The notes under the pieces are model-generated. The model did no database searches. It saw only the letters and a program-made list of their open reading frames with translations, and was not told the origin of the DNA. Both the position numbers and the translations under genes were made by a program. DNA of 20,995 nt from a virus: positions 1 through 20,995 of IMG/VR virus record IMGVR_UViG_3300025870_000095. One strand, 5' to 3'. This document shows positions 1,786 through 14,267 of the stretch, piece after piece. Each line of letters opens with the position of its first letter. Within the stretch, counting starts at the first letter, position 1.

Positions 1786-2106
1786 TTAAACAGTAAAACT
1801 TTCACCACAGCCACATTCTGCTGCTACATTTGGGTTTCTAAACACAAATCCTTCGTTTAATCCGGTACGAATAAAGTCTACTGCAGTTCCGTCTATGTAC
1901 ACATTACTTTTAGGATCTACGAATACATCTACATCACCGCATTTAGATATTATATCATCTTCTTGTGGAATGTCAACAAATTCTATAATATATGCTAGGC
2001 CAGAGCATCCGGTGGTTGTTACACCAAGACGGATACCTGCCCCTTTATTACGAGCTTTAAGACTCTTAATAGCATGTTCTTGAGCTTTTTGTGACATAGT
2101 AATCAT
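1786..2106 (-). CDS. iscA-like: A-type iron-sulfur carrier protein (IscA/ErpA/HesB family)
   Basis: A-type carriers accept Fe-S clusters or iron from a scaffold such as IscU and pass them to client enzymes. The 106 residues equal the usual length of bacterial IscA. The three ligand cysteines are present: Cys34 in TTGCSGLAY, and Cys98 and Cys100 in the AAECGCGESF tail. The body (IRLGVTTTGCSG; VFVDPKSNVYIDGTAVDF) follows the family closely. The start is taken at 2106, one base after the nuclease stop; Met4 (2097) is an alternative. It lies in the same gene run as IscU and glutaredoxin, separated from them by the nuclease and two unknowns. Whether it corresponds to IscA, SufA or ErpA cannot be decided by eye. 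Confidence 0.93.
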   Translation of the reverse strand: MITMSQKAQEHAIKSLKARNKGAGIRLGVTTTGCSGLAYIIEFVDIPQEDDIISKCGDVDVFVDPKSNVYIDGTAVDFIRTGLNEGFVFRNPNVAAECGCGESFTV

Positions 2107-2916: not shown

Positions 2917-3104
2917 CAGTAATCTACTTTTCGCCTCGTAAGCTCATTGCGAATTTTTTGCTTGAGCTTTGGCAAAGTGTTGCGACCTTCAAGAGCATTC
3001 TTCAGCTCGTCAGTCGAAATATTTTTAATGTAAGATCGTCGTGTTTCAGTCTTACCAGATTGTCGGTCTTTAACAACAGTGTCTTCTTTATATTTAATAG
3101 GCAT
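2916..3104 (-). CDS. Conserved small basic phage protein, 62 aa
   Basis: The product is basic and ends LPKLKQKIRNELTRRKVDY. The pattern of an N-terminal MPIKYK-type start, a middle YIKNISTDEL and a final K-x-K-x-K-I-R-N-E-L-x-R-R resembles a short protein I recall from T4-like cyanophages, of unknown function. The TAATG overlap with the IscU stop (3104-3106) ties its translation to that of IscU. A nucleic-acid-binding role would fit the charge but is not shown. Confidence 0.8.
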   Translation of the reverse strand: MPIKYKEDTVVKDRQSGKTETRRSYIKNISTDELKNALEGRNTLPKLKQKIRNELTRRKVDY

Positions 3105-3487
3105 TATACTTCCTCATGTTTTTGTCTATAGTCATTTACTGCAGCTTTGATTGCGTCTTCTGCAAGTACACTACAGTGGATTTTAACTGGTGGGAGGGCA
3201 AGCTCTGAAGCAAGGTCTGTGTTCTTAATCGCTTCAGCTTCATCAAGACTTCTTCCTTTAACCCATTCGGTAAGCAAGCTGGAAGACGCGATAGCACTTC
3301 CGCATCCGTAAGTTTTGAACTTTGCATCTAATATCACTCCATCTTTTACTTGTATTTGTAACTTCATAACATCGCCACATGCCGGAGCACCGACCATGCC
3401 TGTTCCTACATCATCATCTTTCTCGTCCATCCTACCGACATTGCGAGGATTTTCATAATGATCTATCACTTTATCAGAGTACGCCAC
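3104..3487 (-). CDS. iscU: IscU/NifU-N-type iron-sulfur cluster scaffold protein
   Basis: IscU is the scaffold on which a [2Fe-2S] cluster is built from IscS-supplied sulfur before chaperone-assisted transfer. All key residues are present: Cys37 and Asp39 in GAPACGDVM, Cys62 in TYGCGSAIASSS, and His104-Cys105 in VKIHCSVLAEDAIKAA. The LPPVK motif that HscA-type Hsp70 binds is at residues 98-102. Length 127 is that of bacterial IscU. Translation begins at GTG (3487) with AAGGA seven bases upstream, and the gene overlaps the glutaredoxin gene by 14 bp. No IscS, HscA or HscB is seen here, so it would depend on the host cysteine desulfurase and chaperones. A functional scaffold is well supported. 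Confidence 0.96.
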   Translation of the reverse strand: MAYSDKVIDHYENPRNVGRMDEKDDDVGTGMVGAPACGDVMKLQIQVKDGVILDAKFKTYGCGSAIASSSLLTEWVKGRSLDEAEAIKNTDLASELALPPVKIHCSVLAEDAIKAAVNDYRQKHEEV

Positions 3488-3710
3488 TTGGAATCCTTAA
3501 GTGTTTTTTAAGATTGTTAAGATTACCTATGTAATTACCGTCAGAGAAAATATGAGGCATAGTTCGAGTATCGCAACCGGTTGCTACTAGTTCTTTATAA
3601 TACATGGTAATTCCTGCATCATAGTATTGATACGGCTTTCCATATTTCCTACATTCTTTTACAGCTTGTGTACAGTACCCACATCCGCGAGTACCATAAA
3701 TCTTAATCAT
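3474..3710 (-). CDS. Glutaredoxin, dithiol CGYC type, 78 aa
   Basis: This is a compact thioredoxin-fold protein, MIKIYGTRGCGYCTQAV, with active-site Cys10-Gly-Tyr-Cys13 and the TMPHIF cis-proline loop followed by the GNL glutathione-site region. The start is the ATG at 3710, preceded by GAGGAA about seven bases upstream; the longer in-frame extension upstream belongs to another frame's small gene. The start overlaps the stop of that small gene as ATGA and the 3' end overlaps iscU. Glutaredoxins reduce disulfides using glutathione and can also carry [2Fe-2S]; the direct coupling to iscU makes the second role worth considering. It is distinct from the glutaredoxin domain fused to NrdB. Confidence 0.92.
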   Translation of the reverse strand: MIKIYGTRGCGYCTQAVKECRKYGKPYQYYDAGITMYYKELVATGCDTRTMPHIFSDGNYIGNLNNLKKHLRIPSGVL

Positions 3711-3853
3711 TGCCAAATTCCTCCACCACTGAAAAATCCAAAAAAAGTAAAACTTAATAATGCTAGTGCTGCTATTAGTCCATACCAAGTTTCTGAATCC
3801 GACCAATCTTGTCCCGCTTGGATTTGTTTATAGCGAGGTTTTTTCTTTGGCAT
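3707..3853 (-). CDS. Small single-span membrane protein, 48 aa
   Basis: The peptide starts MPKKKPRYKQIQAGQDWSD and then has one hydrophobic segment (about residues 24-41, YGLIAALALLSFTFFGFF) and ends GGGIWQ. ATG at 3853 has AGGAC upstream, and the stop overlaps the glutaredoxin start as ATGA. The basic head, W-x-D-x-x-T-W-Y pattern and single membrane span are like a short protein I recall from T4-like cyanophages. Function unknown. Confidence 0.7.
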   Translation of the reverse strand: MPKKKPRYKQIQAGQDWSDSETWYGLIAALALLSFTFFGFFSGGGIWQ

Positions 3854-5611: not shown

Positions 5612-5830
5612 CTAATATTTCTGATCGTTCTTTAATCTTCTCTGAATTCTGTATATTATATATTCAGCCTCAGGAAGGTCATCACCCATAAACTCAATAA
5701 CTTTATCTATCATATCGAGCTTTTCTATTTCATCATGCATGCGCTGAGCATGCCTCAGCCGAGCGTACATCTCAGAAAACTCGTGAGGTCCGAACGGCTT
5801 TTTGTTCTTGTTAGAATCTTTTTCGTTCAC
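5612..5830 (-). CDS. Hypothetical helical protein, 72 aa
   Basis: The start is placed at GTG 5830, whose last two bases overlap the TGA stop of the DUF454 gene (GTGA); a TTG nine bases earlier (5839) is a weaker alternative. The protein has a basic Asn/Lys-rich head and then charged helices (EFSEMYARLRHAQRMHDEIE; LPEAEYIIYRIQRRLKND). No membrane span or cysteine. Function unknown; probably translated by coupling with the DUF454 protein. Confidence 0.7.
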   Translation of the reverse strand: MNEKDSNKNKKPFGPHEFSEMYARLRHAQRMHDEIEKLDMIDKVIEFMGDDLPEAEYIIYRIQRRLKNDQKY

Positions 5831-6246
5831 TTCAGCCAACCAATTTTCAGACCAGCCGCTTTGCGTCGGTCGTACTCCTCAACAGAACCTGGATATCTCC
5901 AAGCCCATACAAGCCAAAATAACATGAATAAACCTATACCGATAATTGCTGCCGGCTTAAGTTGTAGGTATATAAGCCAAGCAAAAGAAAAAGCCATACA
6001 TGCTGCCATAATATACTTTGCTTTTGTTGGGTAGATTCTCTTCTCAGTCCATGCTCGAACGTATGGACCAAACGTTGGATGTTCCCAAATCCACTGTTGT
6101 AAAGCTGGAGAGCCTTTACTGAAACACCATAGCGCAAGTAGCAAGAAAGATGTTGTAGGAATGCCGGGTACCAGTACTCCAATGTAAGCCATTCCCACCG
6201 ATACTAGACCGGCGCCCCGCCACAAATATTTTGTTACGCTATTCAT
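5827..6246 (-). CDS. DUF454 (YbaN-like) inner-membrane protein
   Basis: The family signature is plain: an N-terminal segment ending VLVPGIPTTSFLLLALWCFS (24-43), then SPALQQWIWEHPTFGPYVRA (46-65), then an R-I-Y-P-T-K-A-K basic turn and two closely spaced hydrophobic spans (about 80-116). Length 139 is that of bacterial YbaN. DUF454 proteins are widespread in Proteobacteria, with unknown function. Its presence in a phage is notable; it probably came from a host gene. It sits with the ClpP-like and HemA genes in the same run. No targeting role can be read from sequence. Confidence 0.88.
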   Translation of the reverse strand: MNSVTKYLWRGAGLVSVGMAYIGVLVPGIPTTSFLLLALWCFSKGSPALQQWIWEHPTFGPYVRAWTEKRIYPTKAKYIMAACMAFSFAWLIYLQLKPAAIIGIGLFMLFWLVWAWRYPGSVEEYDRRKAAGLKIGWLK

Positions 6247-6254
6247 AATTTATA

Positions 6255-6902
6255 CTACTCCTTTGGTTCAGATGCTTTTCGGCGTCTCCTTTTGGGTTTC
6301 GGCTTTTCGGCCTCTTCCTCTTCTTGTAATTTAAGCTGTAAGGCTTCTGCCTTCAACCGTATGCGTCCTGTTACCTCGTCTCCATTCAACCAAATGTCTT
6401 TGTTATTAAACATCAGTTGAAGTTCTTCCTCGGTGAGAAATCCATCGTAGAAATCTCGGAACATATTCTCGGACCATTCTGCTTCATATTTAAGCTGATC
6501 CATCATTTCACCACCCTTTCCAAATGTACCACCACTATAGTTATGGAACATAAACATCGAGTGGTCAGATACTTCTACAAGGTCAGCTTGTAAAAATATA
6601 ATCGTAGCTGCTGACATACACTGTCCTTCAACTGAGCATACGATAGTAGCTGCTGTCTCTTGTAAAGCTCGAACGATTTGTAAAGTCGTTAATAGATTAC
6701 CACCATTTGAATTAATGTGAATCTTAACAACATCGTTTTCGCTACAATTACGAATGGTATCCAGCCAGTCGGTATAATCTTCAGGTGAACCTATCTCATA
6801 AAGATAGAATGAGTGCATCATTGAACCTGCTCGTGAATAGAACGGAGGTCCTCCCCCTAGCACTTTACCTAAATCGATTTTTTGTTGATCGTTACTTCTC
6901 AT
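6255..6902 (-). CDS. clpP-like: ClpP-like serine protease (S14 family)
   Basis: ClpP is the barrel-shaped serine peptidase that degrades unfolded proteins delivered by an AAA+ partner. The triad can be placed: Ser97 in GQCMSAATI, His120 in MFMFHNYSGG, and Asp169 in NNKDIWL. The strand VVKIHINSNGGNLLTTLQIV (58-77) is the usual glycine-rich substrate strand. Compared with bacterial ClpP, the N-terminus lacks the typical PMVIEQ-type loops that touch ClpX/ClpA. The C-terminus carries a long charged tail ending KPKPKRRRRKASEPKE. Such forms are common in T4-like marine phages, where a prohead or host-protein processing role has been guessed. Start ATG 6902 has GGAG about 11 bases upstream. Confidence 0.88.
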   Translation of the reverse strand: MRSNDQQKIDLGKVLGGGPPFYSRAGSMMHSFYLYEIGSPEDYTDWLDTIRNCSENDVVKIHINSNGGNLLTTLQIVRALQETAATIVCSVEGQCMSAATIIFLQADLVEVSDHSMFMFHNYSGGTFGKGGEMMDQLKYEAEWSENMFRDFYDGFLTEEELQLMFNNKDIWLNGDEVTGRIRLKAEALQLKLQEEEEAEKPKPKRRRRKASEPKE

Positions 6903-6903
6903 G

Positions 6904-7983
6904 TTATACTGGTCTCCTAGACATCACAGTGGTTAAACCTTTTGTTTCTTGTAGGTATTTATCTTCTACACCAGCATGTTGATCGAGTATTTCCGGACCA
7001 CCGAAGACATCAATTGCCCGTCCTTGTCGTACGTATAATCCACTATCTGCTGTACTCCGTCCTTCGGAAGAGTTGTTACTACTTGCTTCCTCATTCCTTC
7101 CTGACTCTTTATCGGCATCGGCTCTTGGCTCTTCTGATACATCATGTCCGTTGCCGGTGCTCCCGTCGCTGCTATTTCCGTCATCGATATCCATCCTCAT
7201 TATTTGATCTTCGTTGACCAATGGGTTAATTTTAAGTCTATCTCTTTTGAATGCACCTGTCGATACAATCAAAAGCATGATAGCTAGTGGATCAAAAACT
7301 ACAACTAGTAATATGATAATCCAACGTACTGCCACATCAAAATAATCAGCTGCATTTTCTTTTCCATATACAAATTCAGCAATATATTTTAAAGGACCAA
7401 TTTCAACCTCGAGCTCAAGCTTTTCTTGTTGTAGAGGCGCGAGTTCCGTTTGGAGTTCTTCAATGCGTATGTACGCAACATCGATGCTCTCGTTGAGGCC
7501 TTTCCTTTCTTCTGCTTGGCCTTGACGAGTTGCAATCGAACCTGAAGGACCTCGAATTCTGTCGTATTCGATAAGTGTTTGAACTTGAGAATCCAGTTGC
7601 GAGAGTACCGTTTCTGAGTCTGTAATGATTGACTGCTGCCTTGCAATCTGTCTCTCCAAGTTTTGCATTTGTAATTCATTGTTGCCTCCAGCTTTCACAG
7701 ACTGTTCGATGTGAGCTTTTGAAAGATAACCAAATATGCCCATACTAGTTATGAACATGAGTATTAATATTGCTGTGGTAAAGTATGCACGTGTAAGTAC
7801 ATTAATCCTTTCCCACTCATAGTGTAGCCAAGCTGCACTGACAAGTTTACCTATTTCAAGTACACCAGCCATAATCATTACTGATAAGGCGGCACCACTA
7901 AAAATAGTCATGATGCCGACGATACTAAACCAAGCAGCACATGCCGCTAAAAGAATTGCAGTAAATAAAGTTAGCCACTTCAT
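6904..7983 (-). CDS. Conserved marine-phage membrane protein with large coiled coil, 359 aa
   Basis: Three hydrophobic spans occupy roughly residues 4-26, 28-50 and 66-88. A long coiled coil follows (about 97-200, LQMQNLERQIARQQSIITDS onward), including EYDRIRGPSGSIATRQGQAE. A fourth span (about 217-242, RWIIILLVVVFDPLAIMLLI) and an Asp/Ser/Asn/Gly-rich low-complexity tail complete it. I recall near-identical architecture and motifs (ITSMGIFGYLSKAH, GGNNELQ, VVFDPLA) in cyanophages and pelagiphages, with no known function. The coiled coil between two membrane regions is probably on one side of the inner membrane. AAGGATACTTAAA before ATG 7983 supports the start. It follows hemA by 30 bp. Confidence 0.9.
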   Translation of the reverse strand: MKWLTLFTAILLAACAAWFSIVGIMTIFSGAALSVMIMAGVLEIGKLVSAAWLHYEWERINVLTRAYFTTAILILMFITSMGIFGYLSKAHIEQSVKAGGNNELQMQNLERQIARQQSIITDSETVLSQLDSQVQTLIEYDRIRGPSGSIATRQGQAEERKGLNESIDVAYIRIEELQTELAPLQQEKLELEVEIGPLKYIAEFVYGKENAADYFDVAVRWIIILLVVVFDPLAIMLLIVSTGAFKRDRLKINPLVNEDQIMRMDIDDGNSSDGSTGNGHDVSEEPRADADKESGRNEEASSNNSSEGRSTADSGLYVRQGRAIDVFGGPEILDQHAGVEDKYLQETKGLTTVMSRRPV

Positions 7984-8013
7984 TTTAAGTATCCTTTGTT
8001 TACCTCGCTATCT

Positions 8014-9213
8014 CTATTTAACATAGTTGAAAGCTTCCTTAAGAGCCTCGACCAACTCTTCCATCATACCATTGGTGTGAAGTGGTGTCGGTGTAATTCT
8101 AAGCCGCTCTGTACCCACAGCGACTGTTGGATAATTAATTGGTTGAATATAAATTCCATGTACATTTAGTAACCTATCTGATATTTCTTTACATCGCTTA
8201 GCATCCCCTACCATTATCGGTAATATGTGAGTGCAAGCGGATTCGTGTATATCGAGCCCTGCTTCCTTTATCATTGCTGTAAGTAATGCTGCTCGCTCTT
8301 GGTGTTTTTGTCTGAGTTCGTCGTGGCTACGAAGATATCGTATTGACGCGATGTTTCCGGCACATACAACAGGTGACGTGCTTGTGGTGAAGATGAAGCC
8401 GGATGCGATTGATCGAATAGCATCAATAACAATACTATCACCAGCAATATAACCTCCGTGGCCACCAAACGCTTTTCCCAAGGTTCCATTAATAATATCT
8501 ACCCTCTTTTCTCCTATCTTTTCGCAGTATCCTCCGCCAGTGTCTCCATAAAGTCCTACTGCATGAACCTCATCAATGTAAGTCATAGCGCCGTACTCAC
8601 CGGCAAGATCACATATTTCTTTTATGGGTGCTACATCACCATCCATACTGTAAACACTCTCAAACACAACACACGGAATCTTGCCTTCAGCTCGTGTTTT
8701 TTGTAAAGCTGATTTGAGCTCATCCATATTGTTATGTTCAAATAATATTTTATCTGCGCCAGAGTGTTTAATGCCCATGATAATACTAGCATGATTCATT
8801 GTATCACTTACAAAGCAAATATTAGGAATGATTTTTGATAAAGCGATGAGAGCCCATTCGTTTGCAACATAGGCTGAGGTGAAAAGTAAAGCAGACTCGG
8901 TAGCATGCAATAGTGCTAATTCTTTTTCCAACGTTACATGATAATGTGATGTTCCACCGATGTTACGAGTACCACCACTACCAGCGCCAGTTTTGTCAAG
9001 AGCTGTTTGCATGGCCGTGATTACATGGTGATTCTGTCCCATGCAAAGATAATCGTTCGAACACCAATTGACTATAGACCGTGGCGAGTATTTACCATAC
9101 CACGTTGCTTTAGGAAAGCCACCTCGCTCTCTTACAATATCATTGAAGACTCGATAATTGCCTTCAGCTTTGAGTTGATCTACTACGTCTTGAAATTTTT
9201 GTTTATTAATCAT
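8014..9213 (-). CDS. hemA: 5-aminolevulinate synthase (ALAS, Shemin pathway)
   Basis: ALAS condenses glycine and succinyl-CoA to 5-aminolevulinate with pyridoxal phosphate, the first step of haem synthesis in Alphaproteobacteria. The 399 residues align end to end with alphaproteobacterial HemA (about 400). Visible landmarks are [17 protein letters not shown] (76-92) with Thr82/Asn84, His141 after [15 protein letters not shown] (184-193), Asp214 and His217 in YIDEVHAVG, and the PLP lysine Lys247 in [17 protein letters not shown] (357-364) and [11 protein letters not shown] (367-377) complete the fold. The match of TRN and the PIN-YPTV block to ALAS separates it from BioF and Kbl. The start at 9213 overlaps the upstream stop by eight bases; a longer in-frame start at 9285 lacks a binding site. 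No haem-regulatory CP motif is seen. The enzyme looks intact. Confidence 0.96.
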
Positions 9214-9571
9214 CAACTTGTTCCCAAATATTATCAGCGGTAAACCGAAAAGTGCCGATACATTCAAATCGATTCCAATTATCAATTATGCTGAGCATGT
9301 GTTCATTATTATCTCTATACAAGTAATATATATGCCCAACACGAGGAACAAAATTATACTTAGCATTGTATACGAGTTGCGTTAACTCAGCCACCCTTTT
9401 CAGTTCTTCATATTCCCTATTGAGTTGTGCTAACCTTTCCTCGAAATATCGAGCTGCATTAGTCCCTCGTTCGGAGCGGAATAAGTCAGTGTCCGGCAGG
9501 GTGATAGCCGGCGCACTGACATTACTTCCATAGGATAATAGGCCTGGATTCTCAGGCAGCGTATGCGTCAT
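9206..9571 (-). CDS. DUF2452-like conserved phage protein
   Basis: The C-terminal two thirds ([20 protein letters not shown], then [19 protein letters not shown] and [20 protein letters not shown]) match, from memory, the DUF2452 family found in T4-like phages and some bacteria. The N-terminal part holds a charged helix ([20 protein letters not shown]). No catalytic motif can be named. It overlaps the end of nrdB by 20 bp and the start of hemA by eight, so the three proteins are translationally linked, placing ALAS directly downstream of the RNR genes. Confidence 0.85.
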
Positions 9572-10760
9572 CCCAGTTACCTGACAGACCTGCTACTTCA
9601 TATTCTGTCACACGATTCTCAAAGAAGTTAGTGTGATCAGCTCCATTCAAAACCCACTCAAGCCAAGGTAGAGGATTCTCTTTGACTTTAAAGTTTGGTT
9701 TCATTCCAAGTTGTAGCAATCTCCTATCGGTAATATAGCGAATGTATTCTTTTACTTCTGAAACTTCAAGCCCTTCGATTGTACCGAGCTCATAAGCCAA
9801 ATCAATAAACTTATCTTCGAGATCAACGATGTCACTAGACATCTCATAGATTTCTTTCTTAAAATCGTTATCAACAACTCGAGCATGCTCCTTACAAAAA
9901 GCTTTGAAGAGTTTTGAGTTACCTTCGACATGCATACTTTCATCTCGTATAGACCACTCAACAACCTTGCCCATACCCTTCATCTTACCAAAACGCTGGA
10001 AGTTCAGAAGCATTACGAACGAAGCAAATAGTGCTACGCCCTCGTTGAACACTGATTTAGCTAGGGACAATCCAAGCCCTCTGAGAGTGTTTGTATCTGC
10101 TTTACGCATGTACTCAATTTTGTCAGCCATTTCTGAATACTCGAGGAATGCATGATACTCGCTATCTGGAAGACCGAGTGTTTCATTGAGTAGAGCATAG
10201 GCTCGTTGATGGATGCCTTCCCTTGCAGCAAAAGATCCTAGCATGTTACGTATTTCGTTATTCTTAAACTTAGGAATAAACTGATCATAATAGTTTTGGC
10301 CAACAGCAACATCACTCTGAGTAAACAATCTCAATATGTTGATAATGTATTCTTTTTCAGTGGCAGTAATCTTACCACCTTTCCAATCAGCTACATCTTC
10401 TGACAGGTCAAGTTCGTCTTCGATCCAATGAGCTTTTTCATGTCGAGTAGTAATCTCAACAGCCCAAGGATAATGAAACGGCTTATAGGTTTCTGAGAAC
10501 TCTAATAATCCACCTTGCTTCTTAACAAGTTTATCTGAAATTGCCATAAGATCATTATAAGTTCCGATATGCTTATCATCAATAAAGATCTGAGGTACTG
10601 ACCTGACTGCTTTACCGTTTGACATCTTTTGATAAAATGCAAGTCGTTGCTCCTCATTATCAAGGAGAACTTGAGTAAAACCGAAACCATGTTGTGTAAA
10701 CCAAGCTTTGGCTTTTTCGCAAAATGGGCAATTGCTCTTAGTGTAAATTAATACTTCCAT
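9552..10760 (-). CDS. nrdB: Glutaredoxin-NrdB fusion: class I ribonucleotide reductase small subunit
   Basis: Residues 1-80 form a glutaredoxin (CPFC at 11-14, SVPQIF cis-proline loop, GTYNDL), joined to a class I NrdB. The di-iron/tyrosyl site aligns by spacing with E. coli NrdB: Asp150, Glu181, His184, Tyr188 (radical Tyr122 equivalent), Glu240, Glu274 and His277. NrdB makes the radical used by NrdA to reduce ribonucleotides; the fused glutaredoxin would supply electrons to the NrdA cysteines. The E. coli spacing is kept except for about 30 residues fewer between the radical tyrosine and Glu240. The C-terminal tail ([18 protein letters not shown]) would dock to NrdA. Such N-terminal glutaredoxin fusions are known in some bacteria and phages. 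ATG 10760 has AAGGAT about 12 bases upstream. Confidence 0.95.
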   Translation of the reverse strand: MEVLIYTKSNCPFCEKAKAWFTQHGFGFTQVLLDNEEQRLAFYQKMSNGKAVRSVPQIFIDDKHIGTYNDLMAISDKLVKKQGGLLEFSETYKPFHYPWAVEITTRHEKAHWIEDELDLSEDVADWKGGKITATEKEYIINILRLFTQSDVAVGQNYYDQFIPKFKNNEIRNMLGSFAAREGIHQRAYALLNETLGLPDSEYHAFLEYSEMADKIEYMRKADTNTLRGLGLSLAKSVFNEGVALFASFVMLLNFQRFGKMKGMGKVVEWSIRDESMHVEGNSKLFKAFCKEHARVVDNDFKKEIYEMSSDIVDLEDKFIDLAYELGTIEGLEVSEVKEYIRYITDRRLLQLGMKPNFKVKENPLPWLEWVLNGADHTNFFENRVTEYEVAGLSGNWDDAYAA

Positions 10761-10775
10761 CTTTTGTTTTATCCT

Positions 10776-12566
10776 TTAACCTTGGCAGGCCACACATTCG
10801 TCTTGTTGTGGCTCGCTACCGTTACTGAAATTTATTGTGTTTGGGTTAATAATGTCGTCTAGTTTTTCACGCTCAACTTTTAGTGACACATTTTCAGCCT
10901 TATTAGACGTTTCTGTGCGTAAATAATATAGTCCCTTACAACCTTGTTTCCATGCCTGATAATGAACCTGGTGTAGATCTTTCTTAGTCGCACCGGCCGG
11001 GAAGAACACATTAAGTGACTGCCCTTGGCATAGGTATTTTTGACGATCAGCTGCTAGACGAATAAGTGATAACTGATCAAGTTCAATAGCAGTTTTAAAC
11101 ACTGCTTTGGTGTGATCGTCAAGGAAGTCGAGATGCTGAACAGATCCACCATTTGTAATGATCATGCTCCAGACCTCTTCTGTATTTTTACCAATCTTCT
11201 CGAGCTCTTCTTCGAGATAGGAATTTTTATTTAGGTGAGAACCCACTCGTGTACGAGAAGTAAATGCATTTGCTTTCCAAGGTTCAATACTTGGAGATGT
11301 GTTTACAATCATAGATGAGTTAGCGTTAGGTGCAATAGCAAGCATGTGAGCATTACGACGACCAGTTCCTTCCATATCAGGAGCTTCACCGCGGCGCTTA
11401 CCCATTTCAAGAGTAGCTTCAACAGCCTTTGCTTTAATGTAAGAGAAGATTGCGTTATTATGTGCAACAGCTTGTGGGCTATCAAAAGGAATACGATTCT
11501 TTTGGAAATAAGAATGCATGCCCATAGCGCCAAGACCTAATGAACGTTCTTGTTGAGCTGAGTATCGAGCTCGAGCAATCTCATCACCTGCATTATCAAT
11601 AAAGAATTGAAGTACGTTATCAAGGAATACTATTAAGTCTTTAACCATAGGAGTATCTTTCCACTCGTCATAAGCTTCAAGATTTACTGATGATAAACAA
11701 CAAACCGCAGTACGATCCTCGCTGGTCACAAGGTGAATTTCATTACATAGATTCGATCCCCGAATCTTCATACCTTTTTGCTTTTGAGCGTCAGGCAAAG
11801 CAGCATTAGCTGTATCGATAAAGTTGAGGTAAGGCTCACCAGTACGATAACGAGTCTCGAGAATATGTTCCCATAGCCGACGAGCCTGAACAGTTTCACG
11901 TACATCGTTACCAGCAGGATCACGTAATTCCCAATCAGCATTCTGCTCAACTGCACGCATGAAGTTATCTGTAATGTTAACAGCATGGTGGAGGTTCAGA
12001 TTCTTACGATTCACGTCACCAGTAGGAATACGCATGTTAACAAACTCAGTAATATCTGGATGATCAACATCCATATATGCCGCGTACGAACCCTTCCGCG
12101 TACGTCCTTGTCGATAAGCAACCATGTCAGCATCGACAGTATGTAGGAATGGCATAGGGCCTGGTGCTTTGTTTGATACAGCACGAATGTCTGACCAATG
12201 ACCACCGACACCACCACCTTTTACAGACAACCAACGCAATTCTGCTGAGTGGTCGATTAGGCCATCCAATGTATCTGGAACGTAAGTAAGAAAGCAGCTA
12301 ATGGGTAACGCCTTTACTTGTTCTCCTTTAATAGGAGCATTCGAGAGAACAGGAGAAGCATACATAAACCAACCTTTAGATACGTAATCGTAGATCCGCT
12401 GTGCAAGTCCTTTATTACCACTACAATAAGCAACTGCTGCTCTAGCAAATGCATGTTGAGGAGACTTTTCATCATCCCGACAATAATAGTCTTTCAATAA
12501 TTTAAATGATTGTTCTGATAACAGCTTATCTCTTTTAGTTTCGATTTCGATACCTAAGTGCTGCAT
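10776..12566 (-). CDS. nrdA: Class I ribonucleotide reductase large subunit, short form
   Basis: It reduces ribonucleoside diphosphates to deoxyribonucleotides with NrdB. Key residues are visible: Cys91 (LPISCFL) and Cys289 (AVCCLSSVNL) as the active-site redox pair, Asn272/Cys274/Glu276 in SNLCNEI for the thiyl and substrate chemistry, Tyr547-Tyr548 in GLYYLRT for radical transfer, and the C-terminal shuttle pair Cys591 and Cys594 in ECVACQG. The 596 residues are well short of the about 750 usual for NrdA. The protein begins directly in the ten-helix domain, so the N-terminal ATP-cone that mediates dATP shut-off is missing. This predicts activity without overall dATP inhibition (inference). 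AAGGAG precedes ATG 12566 by about nine bases. Confidence 0.95.
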   Translation of the reverse strand: MQHLGIEIETKRDKLLSEQSFKLLKDYYCRDDEKSPQHAFARAAVAYCSGNKGLAQRIYDYVSKGWFMYASPVLSNAPIKGEQVKALPISCFLTYVPDTLDGLIDHSAELRWLSVKGGGVGGHWSDIRAVSNKAPGPMPFLHTVDADMVAYRQGRTRKGSYAAYMDVDHPDITEFVNMRIPTGDVNRKNLNLHHAVNITDNFMRAVEQNADWELRDPAGNDVRETVQARRLWEHILETRYRTGEPYLNFIDTANAALPDAQKQKGMKIRGSNLCNEIHLVTSEDRTAVCCLSSVNLEAYDEWKDTPMVKDLIVFLDNVLQFFIDNAGDEIARARYSAQQERSLGLGAMGMHSYFQKNRIPFDSPQAVAHNNAIFSYIKAKAVEATLEMGKRRGEAPDMEGTGRRNAHMLAIAPNANSSMIVNTSPSIEPWKANAFTSRTRVGSHLNKNSYLEEELEKIGKNTEEVWSMIITNGGSVQHLDFLDDHTKAVFKTAIELDQLSLIRLAADRQKYLCQGQSLNVFFPAGATKKDLHQVHYQAWKQGCKGLYYLRTETSNKAENVSLKVEREKLDDIINPNTINFSNGSEPQQDECVACQG

Positions 12567-12585: not shown

Positions 12586-13257
12586 TTAATTTTTGCTCAC
12601 ATAAGATTCCGCCAACGGGAATACTTCTGCAATAACCTTTGCAACCTCTCTTGCGAGCTCCATATGTTCTTTCTGCGTACCATGTCCACTTCGTAATTGA
12701 ATGAAGTGTATCCAAGAACGTATTGTTCCATTGGCATATAACCGCGAAACTGTGTTACCTTCAGGTAGGACCGCTCGAGCCTGTTCTTTTGCAATACCAT
12801 TTTCGATAGCCCAACGGTAAGCTTTCTTTACCTGCATGATAACTTTCAGTTGTTCTTCTTCCCACCTTTCATGTAGATAATCACTGTCAGTTTCTACTGA
12901 GTTCTGTCTATTCTTAAGATCTTGCAGACGAGCTTCTCTTATAACAAAGTCCAAATCTTCTGTTGGATCTGCATATCGTTGACTGAACTCTTGAAAACTA
13001 AAACTACGATGTCTTAAGAACTGTCTTGCTATATCTCTTGTTGTTTCAACTTCTAAACATGCACTTACCATTTCAAACGGTGACCAATGAGCATGCTTTG
13101 CTAAGTAACGCAACAGCTTCTCGCTCGTCTCTGAGTTAAATTGGTTTGTGGGATTACTTACTCGTGCACAGAATGCTATTAGGTCTTCCGCATCGGTAAG
13201 ACCTTCATCTAATATCTCTTCTGCTGGTTGTGAGTAACTTACTAAACGCACTTTCAT
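12586..13257 (-). CDS. thyX: Flavin-dependent thymidylate synthase ThyX
   Basis: ThyX makes dTMP from dUMP with methylene-tetrahydrofolate and FAD/NADPH. The signature RHRxxSxxxxSxR is present as RHRSFSFQEFSQR (82-94), followed by Tyr95. Upstream, HAHWSPFEM (55-63) is the typical FAD-contact segment, and LYANGTIRSWIHFIQLR leads to the conserved C-terminal HGTQKEHMELA. Length 223 is normal. The start is ATG 13257, overlapping the primase stop as TAATG, with GGAG nine bases upstream; the in-frame ATG at 13272 would put that site inside the gene. It joins primase, NrdA and NrdB in a DNA replication/precursor block. Confidence 0.95.
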   Translation of the reverse strand: MKVRLVSYSQPAEEILDEGLTDAEDLIAFCARVSNPTNQFNSETSEKLLRYLAKHAHWSPFEMVSACLEVETTRDIARQFLRHRSFSFQEFSQRYADPTEDLDFVIREARLQDLKNRQNSVETDSDYLHERWEEEQLKVIMQVKKAYRWAIENGIAKEQARAVLPEGNTVSRLYANGTIRSWIHFIQLRSGHGTQKEHMELAREVAKVIAEVFPLAESYVSKN

Positions 13258-14267
13258 TATGTTTTTCTCCATTCCATAAATTTCAATTTTGCTTCCAGTC
13301 CTTTGTAAACATTATCTCGTATAACACCCTGAACATCTGTTAAACCATTCAGGTACATCTCGTTGATATCTTTACCGGGCACATTAGAGGGCCATATAAC
13401 GATCTTATAGCCTTGATCAATTACCTTCGCCATCCTTTTATGTATTTCCAGATTACGCGGCTCAGCGTCGAATACAAAGACTGCATTGTCGGCTGCACGC
13501 CTCAGTGCTTTGGTACTACCTTCCGCACCGTTCATGGCCACTGAGTTTTTCACGAAGAAACTATCAATGGCACCTTCTACTACGTAATATTGACGATTGA
13601 AATCAACAGTATCCAATCCGAAGATCTTGGGGCGATCATCGAACATGATAGTGATGTATCGTATACCCTTAGGATCAAACCCACGAGCTGATACACCAAA
13701 AACCTTCTTGTGTTCGTCTAAGAAGGGAATTACTAATCGAGGTTCGTCTTTATCTACCTTTTCGAATTTATTTGGGACGATACTGTTGATCCATCCTTTG
13801 AACTTTGGCGTGTAGTAAAGACGATAGTGGTGATTCGCTGGAATCTTCCTCTTTTCTATATAGGCTTTTACGGGATGATTCCATGCCAATTGTGAAGCTT
13901 TTTTGATACTTTTTAAAGGATTTTTTTCGAACCTCGGAGCTTCAAACTTAGTTGTCTCGAGGATAGGTTTCGTATTAGCATCTGGCTTTTTAAGAAACTT
14001 ATCAGCAACCCAGTCATTGTACATCATAGGATCTTGGCTCTTAAGGAAGTAAGAGAAAGACATAGATGCACCACAGTTATGACAGTAGTATTGGAACTGA
14101 CTGTCACGTTCAAGTAACCAACCACGAGCTTTAGAGCGAGACTTTTTACTGTCACCACAGATAGGGCAACGGAAGTTAATCTTATATGGATTGGTGTTAC
14201 GTATCTTAAAGTTATCTAGCCGGCCGGCCAGTTGCTGAGCATATTGCAGGTCTACAAATTCTAACAT
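13257..14267 (-). CDS. DNA primase, T4 gp61-like
   Basis: The protein primes lagging-strand DNA synthesis together with a hexameric helicase. An N-terminal zinc-binding domain has Cys34 and Cys37 (FRCPICGDS) with Cys62 and Cys65 (YYCHNCGAS). A Toprim-type catalytic core follows: Glu231 in YYVVEGAIDSFF, Asp267 in VFVFDAEPRN and Asp300 in PGKDINEM. Length 336 is close to T4 gp61 (342). The start is the ATG at 14267; the region between -10 and start is short, consistent with the perfect promoter just upstream (14304-14332). It is the first gene of the block leading into thyX, nrdA and nrdB. Confidence 0.92.
   Translation of the reverse strand: MLEFVDLQYAQQLAGRLDNFKIRNTNPYKINFRCPICGDSKKSRSKARGWLLERDSQFQYYCHNCGASMSFSYFLKSQDPMMYNDWVADKFLKKPDANTKPILETTKFEAPRFEKNPLKSIKKASQLAWNHPVKAYIEKRKIPANHHYRLYYTPKFKGWINSIVPNKFEKVDKDEPRLVIPFLDEHKKVFGVSARGFDPKGIRYITIMFDDRPKIFGLDTVDFNRQYYVVEGAIDSFFVKNSVAMNGAEGSTKALRRAADNAVFVFDAEPRNLEIHKRMAKVIDQGYKIVIWPSNVPGKDINEMYLNGLTDVQGVIRDNVYKGLEAKLKFMEWRKT

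Follow-up and report, generated by a model that had tools for sequence, protein, structure and literature searches.

Why would a T4-like aquatic phage carry a gene for 5-aminolevulinate synthase (ALAS), and does that gene travel alone? The question was raised by an IMG/VR contig 20,995 bp long (IMGVR_UViG_3300025870_000095; the whole stretch is referred to as the window), in which one open reading frame (ORF) almost certainly encodes ALAS, as judged from its sequence.

8014..9213, minus strand: 5-aminolevulinate synthase (ALAS, valaS), 399 amino acids (aa), assigned by TIGR01821, PDB matches, residues and tree

The gene probably specifies a working enzyme that is kept by the phage as an auxiliary metabolic gene. 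For its activity we relied on homology and on the tested enzyme of phage CB_2; fold and residues were shown directly.

Identity and phage origin of the ALAS gene

The ORF was read on the minus strand from an ATG at 9213 to a stop at 8016-8014, and contained no internal stop or frameshift. It was extendable to a TTG at 9285; the ATG at 9213 fits the length of ALAS and overlaps the stop of the preceding ORF (9206-9571) by 8 nt. With the NCBIfam equivalog model TIGR01821 the protein scored 551 bits (cut-off 338.55, E 1.5e-165), which excludes a chance match. Together with the uninterrupted 399-aa frame, this score bore out the intact ALAS proposed in the initial annotation. The nearest PDB entry by sequence was ALAS of Rhodopseudomonas palustris (7x98, 446 bits), followed by that of Rhodobacter capsulatus (Rc; 2bwn). 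ALAS structures were also the top fold matches of the predicted model (predicted local distance difference test, pLDDT, 74; predicted template modelling score, pTM, 0.72).

The residues for pyridoxal 5'-phosphate (PLP) binding, catalysis and glycine binding were present as K247, D214, H217, H141 and R372 (Rc K248, D214, H217, H142 and R374). Also present were R21, T82 and N84, equivalent to Rc R21, T83 and N85, the succinyl-coenzyme A (succinyl-CoA) determinants of structure 2bwo, as well as Asn53, Ile85 and Ser136. All six landmarks named in the initial annotation (Lys247, Asp214, His217, His141, Thr82 and Asn84) were confirmed, and the residues checked were, gaps aside, invariant in 126 phage relatives. 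The ratio of nonsynonymous to synonymous substitution rates (dN/dS) was about 0.03-0.09 in two informative pairs, indicating purifying selection; more distant pairs were saturated or failed, and the figures refer to informative pairs only.

Relatives of the window ALAS were found on at least 184 IMG/VR contigs, and 71 of the 126 that were extracted were distinct at 95%. A maximum-likelihood tree of 94 sequences was rooted on BioF/Kbl. The window protein was placed with ALAS and not with BioF or Kbl, a grouping that the initial annotation had named as refuting, and fell inside a phage clade with support of 100/98 (the clade includes two cellular members); bootstrap was not fully settled, and these values are rough. 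Its nearest rows were all phage, and the clade stood outside alphaproteobacterial, Bacteroidota and most SAR11-order ALAS.

The alpha-oxoamine synthase fold and the catalytic Lys, Asp and His are common to ALAS, BioF (8-amino-7-oxononanoate synthase, AONS) and Kbl, so that a BioF, Kbl or serine palmitoyltransferase homologue using another substrate had to be considered. Such an identity is very improbable. Whereas the TIGR01821 cut-off was far exceeded, scores remained below cut-off for BioF (TIGR00858, 325.5 vs 426.45 bits), for Kbl (PRK06939, 316.3 vs 460 bits; TIGR01822, 263.9 vs 493 bits) and likewise for the serine palmitoyltransferase models of NCBIfam. Thr82 and Asn84 are both missing from the BioF and Kbl representatives, which carry S/H and V/F at these positions, respectively, and the tree groups the window protein with ALAS rather than with BioF/Kbl. 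Equally, the gene might be host DNA that entered through a chimeric contig, a transduced fragment or contamination; misassembled contigs can occur in IMG/VR, and one related contig with two ALAS copies (L003/L033) looked chimeric. However, the same locus with identical gene order was recovered in three other contigs at 98.1-98.8% DNA identity (L002, 98.8% over 12.5 kb; L003 and L004, about 98% over 10.6 kb). ALAS has phage-type neighbours in the fragment, namely a T4-like primase and homologues of head protein and lysozyme; the closest cultured match of the primase was Sinorhizobium phage phiM19/M12 (T4-like, 45%). The window ALAS groups with the phage clade and not with host genes, and ALAS was found on many other phage contigs of up to 237 kb. 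A chimera with host DNA, raised as a possible objection in the initial annotation, is therefore rejected for the window ALAS, and host origin in any form is barely conceivable. GC content and GC at third codon positions (GC3) of ALAS were those of the neighbouring genes, and since GC3 resembles theirs, ALAS is not a recent import.

The chimeric-looking relative, IMGVR_UViG_3300021959_009875 (15 kb, loci L003 and L033), carries two ALAS genes with 99% and 73% identity to that of the window. An abrupt join was seen near L033 2990, and the contig probably arose by misassembly from two related phages.

The DUF454 gene and the probably erased alternative oxidase

Two further features of the locus, a DUF454 partner gene and the probable loss of an alternative oxidase (AOX), were absent from the initial annotation. 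They are listed here with the gene that lies between ALAS and DUF454.

5827..6246, minus strand: small membrane protein of the DUF454 (YbaN-like) family, 139 aa, scoring 110.5 bits with PF04304 (cut-off 35.1)
6904..7983, minus strand: M279 (name given here), membrane/coiled-coil protein between ALAS and DUF454
7980..8024, minus strand: 14-codon in-frame AOX remnant after a 522-bp deletion; contig L004, 98% identical, has the complete gene

By ORF clustering, DUF454 was detected in 72 of 81 ALAS loci and, counted per ALAS protein distinct at 95%, in 41 of 45. Among the 74 ALAS copies whose contigs extended far enough downstream, 71 had it on the same strand within 2.6 kb; in 43 of the 72 loci it overlapped ALAS or started at most 60 nt from it. 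DUF454 occurred in at least three gene contexts: with nrdA-nrdB and then M279, with nrdB-nrdA and then sugar-nucleotide genes, and with structural genes lying on the opposite strand. M279 (cluster 22), which matched nothing in Pfam or PHROG, lies between ALAS and DUF454 in the window lineage (24 of 81 loci). A separate scan was made for phage DUF454. Among its best 80 loci, 47 were beside ALAS and 10 more beside HemO or bilin reductase (Pfam-checked). In four further loci, including both contigs longer than 70 kb, ALAS or HemO was found elsewhere on the contig; the remainder of the best 80 were fragments of about 4-40 kb. DUF454 dN/dS was 0.06-0.09 in informative pairs. The DUF454 model (pTM 0.54) had no match at E <= 0.001 when folds were searched, and no paper linking DUF454 to phages was found in a search of largely open-access literature. 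Phage ALAS thus rarely travels alone; it is accompanied by a small membrane protein, whose role becomes testable.

In L004, which represents the same phage at about 98% identity, a 189-aa AOX (L004:11190-11759; PF01786, E 2.6e-68) was found between ALAS and the next gene, with its start overlapping the ALAS end. The remnant in the window and in L002 consists of the first five and the last AOX residues joined in frame, and the two ends of the 522-bp deletion have 3 bp of sequence in common. Because AOX occupies the same place in L006-L008, L010, L020 and L033, its loss from the window lineage is likelier than its gain in L004. The enzyme is a quinol oxidase, and the position of AOX beside ALAS would fit a respiratory role. 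That a near-identical phage has AOX at this spot suggests that these phages protect respiration.

Gene neighbourhood and proposed role

The remaining genes of the neighbourhood were assigned as follows.

1786..2106, minus strand: IscA-like iron-sulphur (Fe-S) protein (TIGR00049, 104 vs 58.8 bits)
3104..3487, minus strand: IscU Fe-S scaffold (TIGR01999, 221 vs 192.4 bits)
6255..6902, minus strand: ClpP-like serine protease (PF00574, E 1.1e-8)
9206..9571, minus strand: 121-aa ORF separating nrdB from ALAS and found only in the window phage and near-identical relatives
9552..10760, minus strand: glutaredoxin-NrdB fusion, ribonucleotide reductase beta (NF009398, 689.6 vs 649 bits)
10776..12566, minus strand: NrdA, ribonucleotide reductase alpha (NF006577, 790.8 vs 620 bits)
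12586..13272, minus strand: ThyX thymidylate synthase (PF02511, E 3.2e-43)
13257..14267, minus strand: T4-like DNA primase, a phage marker (phrog_47, E 1.9e-73)

With TIGR02011 the IscA-like protein scored 134 bits, under the cut-off of 150.6. A separate glutaredoxin-like ORF was noted at 3474-3806. As the phage carries an IscA-like gene, iscU and this ORF in addition to ALAS, its genes cover part of Fe-S supply and part of haem supply alike. Scans of the window gave no RNA family (Rfam) and no tRNA. Promoter and terminator counts were near shuffle level (28 promoters vs 21.1 expected; 4 terminators vs 4.6), so that an operon boundary cannot be drawn.

Because ALAS closes the thyX-nrdA-nrdB stretch and begins within the end of the ORF before it, its translation as part of this nucleotide-metabolism operon is probable. 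With PLP on Lys247, the enzyme would condense glycine and succinyl-CoA to 5-aminolevulinate (ALA), CoA and CO2. Phage ALAS would likely keep up tetrapyrrole supply, and hence respiration and ATP, at a time when host ALAS is no longer replenished; such ALA supply is the probable role of the gene. The conserved downstream DUF454 membrane protein, to go by its linkage, may act in the same tetrapyrrole task. Tentatively, phage ALAS and DUF454 may form a two-gene tetrapyrrole module, with DUF454/YbaN as a membrane partner of tetrapyrrole metabolism that could, for example, export, import or sequester ALA, porphyrin or haem, or tie ALAS to the membrane. If true, this would be the first function for the widespread DUF454/YbaN family.

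An active enzyme might instead divert succinyl-CoA or glycine, or feed bilin synthesis (HemO-PcyA/PcyX), rather than sustain haem. Genes for HemO and bilin reductase do lie at other genomic sites in four large relatives (G016, G028, G032 and G050), and in L176 HemO, bilin reductase, ALAS and DUF454 all lie within 6 kb. However, HemO was not found in 23 of the 27 valaS contigs searched, including one of 156 kb, nor in the 21-kb window, and carbon diversion through a low-flux pathway is not to be expected. We regard both uses as unlikely, and ALA supply for haem is preferred.

By Wegner et al., phage ALAS was held to be freed from haem feedback by the missing His342/Cys400 (PMC11480375). In the window ALAS, Arg340 occupies the Rc His342 position and a C-terminal Cys is missing. 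Of 29 alphaproteobacterial ALAS that were sampled, only 3 have an equivalent of His342, and a Cys within the last 12 residues was present in 2 of 36 alphaproteobacterial/SAR11-order ALAS. The missing residues are a weak argument for escape from feedback, as most sampled cellular ALAS are also without His342/Cys.

Several observations weigh against an ALAS-DUF454 unit kept by the phage for tetrapyrrole supply. The window is a 21-kb fragment, and in its own lineage DUF454 lies 1.8 kb from ALAS with two genes between, a looser coupling. Missing feedback residues do not distinguish phage from cellular ALAS. DUF454 accompanied none of 36 alphaproteobacterial/SAR11-order ALAS loci and none of the 62 genome loci with ALAS that were not phage-like. 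It was above cut-off in 29 of 115 alphaproteobacteria, where no haem neighbours were shared among the families listed; on this ground the link between DUF454 and tetrapyrroles is one observed in phages only.

Cellular relatives and known systems

Two cellular ALAS nest within the phage clade. One (L090:6001-7188, WNLJ01000010.1) sits among pdxA-, surA- and lptD-like genes (names read from sequence) on the Neisseriaceae bacterium PsAf chromosome, and stands beside phage contig L078 in the tree; a phage-to-bacterium transfer is possible. The other (L093) is from a SAR11 metagenome-assembled genome (MAG) with a record name pointing to an oxygen-minimum zone, and is divergent from an adjoining HemN-like gene. 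These copies suggest an exchange of haem-precursor genes between phages and bacteria. Five "bacterial" MAG contigs with the phage-style ALAS-DUF454 arrangement (L088, L089, L091, L092 and L144) are probably phage contigs binned with bacteria, and the ALAS of one is identical to that of a viral contig; such mis-binning may explain the Rhodobacter-like exception of Wegner et al. L088, L092 and L144 belong to Rhodobacteraceae bacterium Water_Bin34. Among the cultured phages of INPHARED, ALAS matches had 28-35% identity and were of BioF/Kbl type where annotated; several of the records are bacterial DNA.

The GTDB order that includes Pelagibacteraceae MAG G055 was sampled with 58 genomes, and a clear ALAS was detected in only 6 of them, glutamyl-tRNA reductase above cut-off in none and HemB in all 58. 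Most sampled SAR11-order genomes thus seem to be without both known ALA routes, in contrast to the Shemin pathway claimed for the family (PMC11480375).

Viral alaS (valaS) was published in 2024 by Wegner et al., and the copy of another phage (CB_2) was shown to form ALA and to rescue an Escherichia coli strain auxotrophic for ALA (PMC11480375); the remark in the initial annotation that Shemin-pathway genes had been reported from aquatic phages was correct. Phage ALAS is therefore already known, and what is added here is the linkage to DUF454 and the history of AOX, neither of which is mentioned in the main text of that paper. Nor does its text mention the two bacterial chromosomal copies inside the phage clade or the rarity of the feedback residues among cellular ALAS. 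Like the window gene, published valaS is located on myovirus-like aquatic phages, stands apart from bacterial copies and has conserved catalytic residues. It occurs alone or with hemO-pcyA/X (PMC11480375), whereas the window fragment has no hemO/pcyX: no ORF of a hemO-pcyA/X-valaS cassette was among the scanned window genes, and no PF01126 or PF05996 match was obtained in a near-identical 33-kb contig (G003). Several large relatives have HemO and bilin reductase well away from ALAS, an arrangement like the "broken cassette" of PMC11480375. The window differs further from published valaS in its nrdAB-thyX context and isc genes, and appears to add a T4-like lineage with nrd linkage to the carriers of this recently discovered auxiliary gene.

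The HemA/ALAS of alphaproteobacteria (R. palustris 7x98, R. capsulatus 2bwn) agrees with the window ALAS in length, fold, and PLP and substrate residues, with identities of about 46-54% when the folds were compared, but forms a separate clade, and the cellular loci examined had no DUF454 neighbour. The phage DUF454 protein resembles the DUF454/YbaN inner-membrane family (PF04304) at 110.5 bits; cellular members are without a common haem-gene neighbourhood, whereas phage members are tied to tetrapyrrole enzymes. The hemO-pcyA cassette of Pelagibacter phage Mosig (MT647606) likewise places tetrapyrrole genes in a T4-like aquatic phage; no ALAS and no DUF454 were found in Mosig, whereas the window phage has both.
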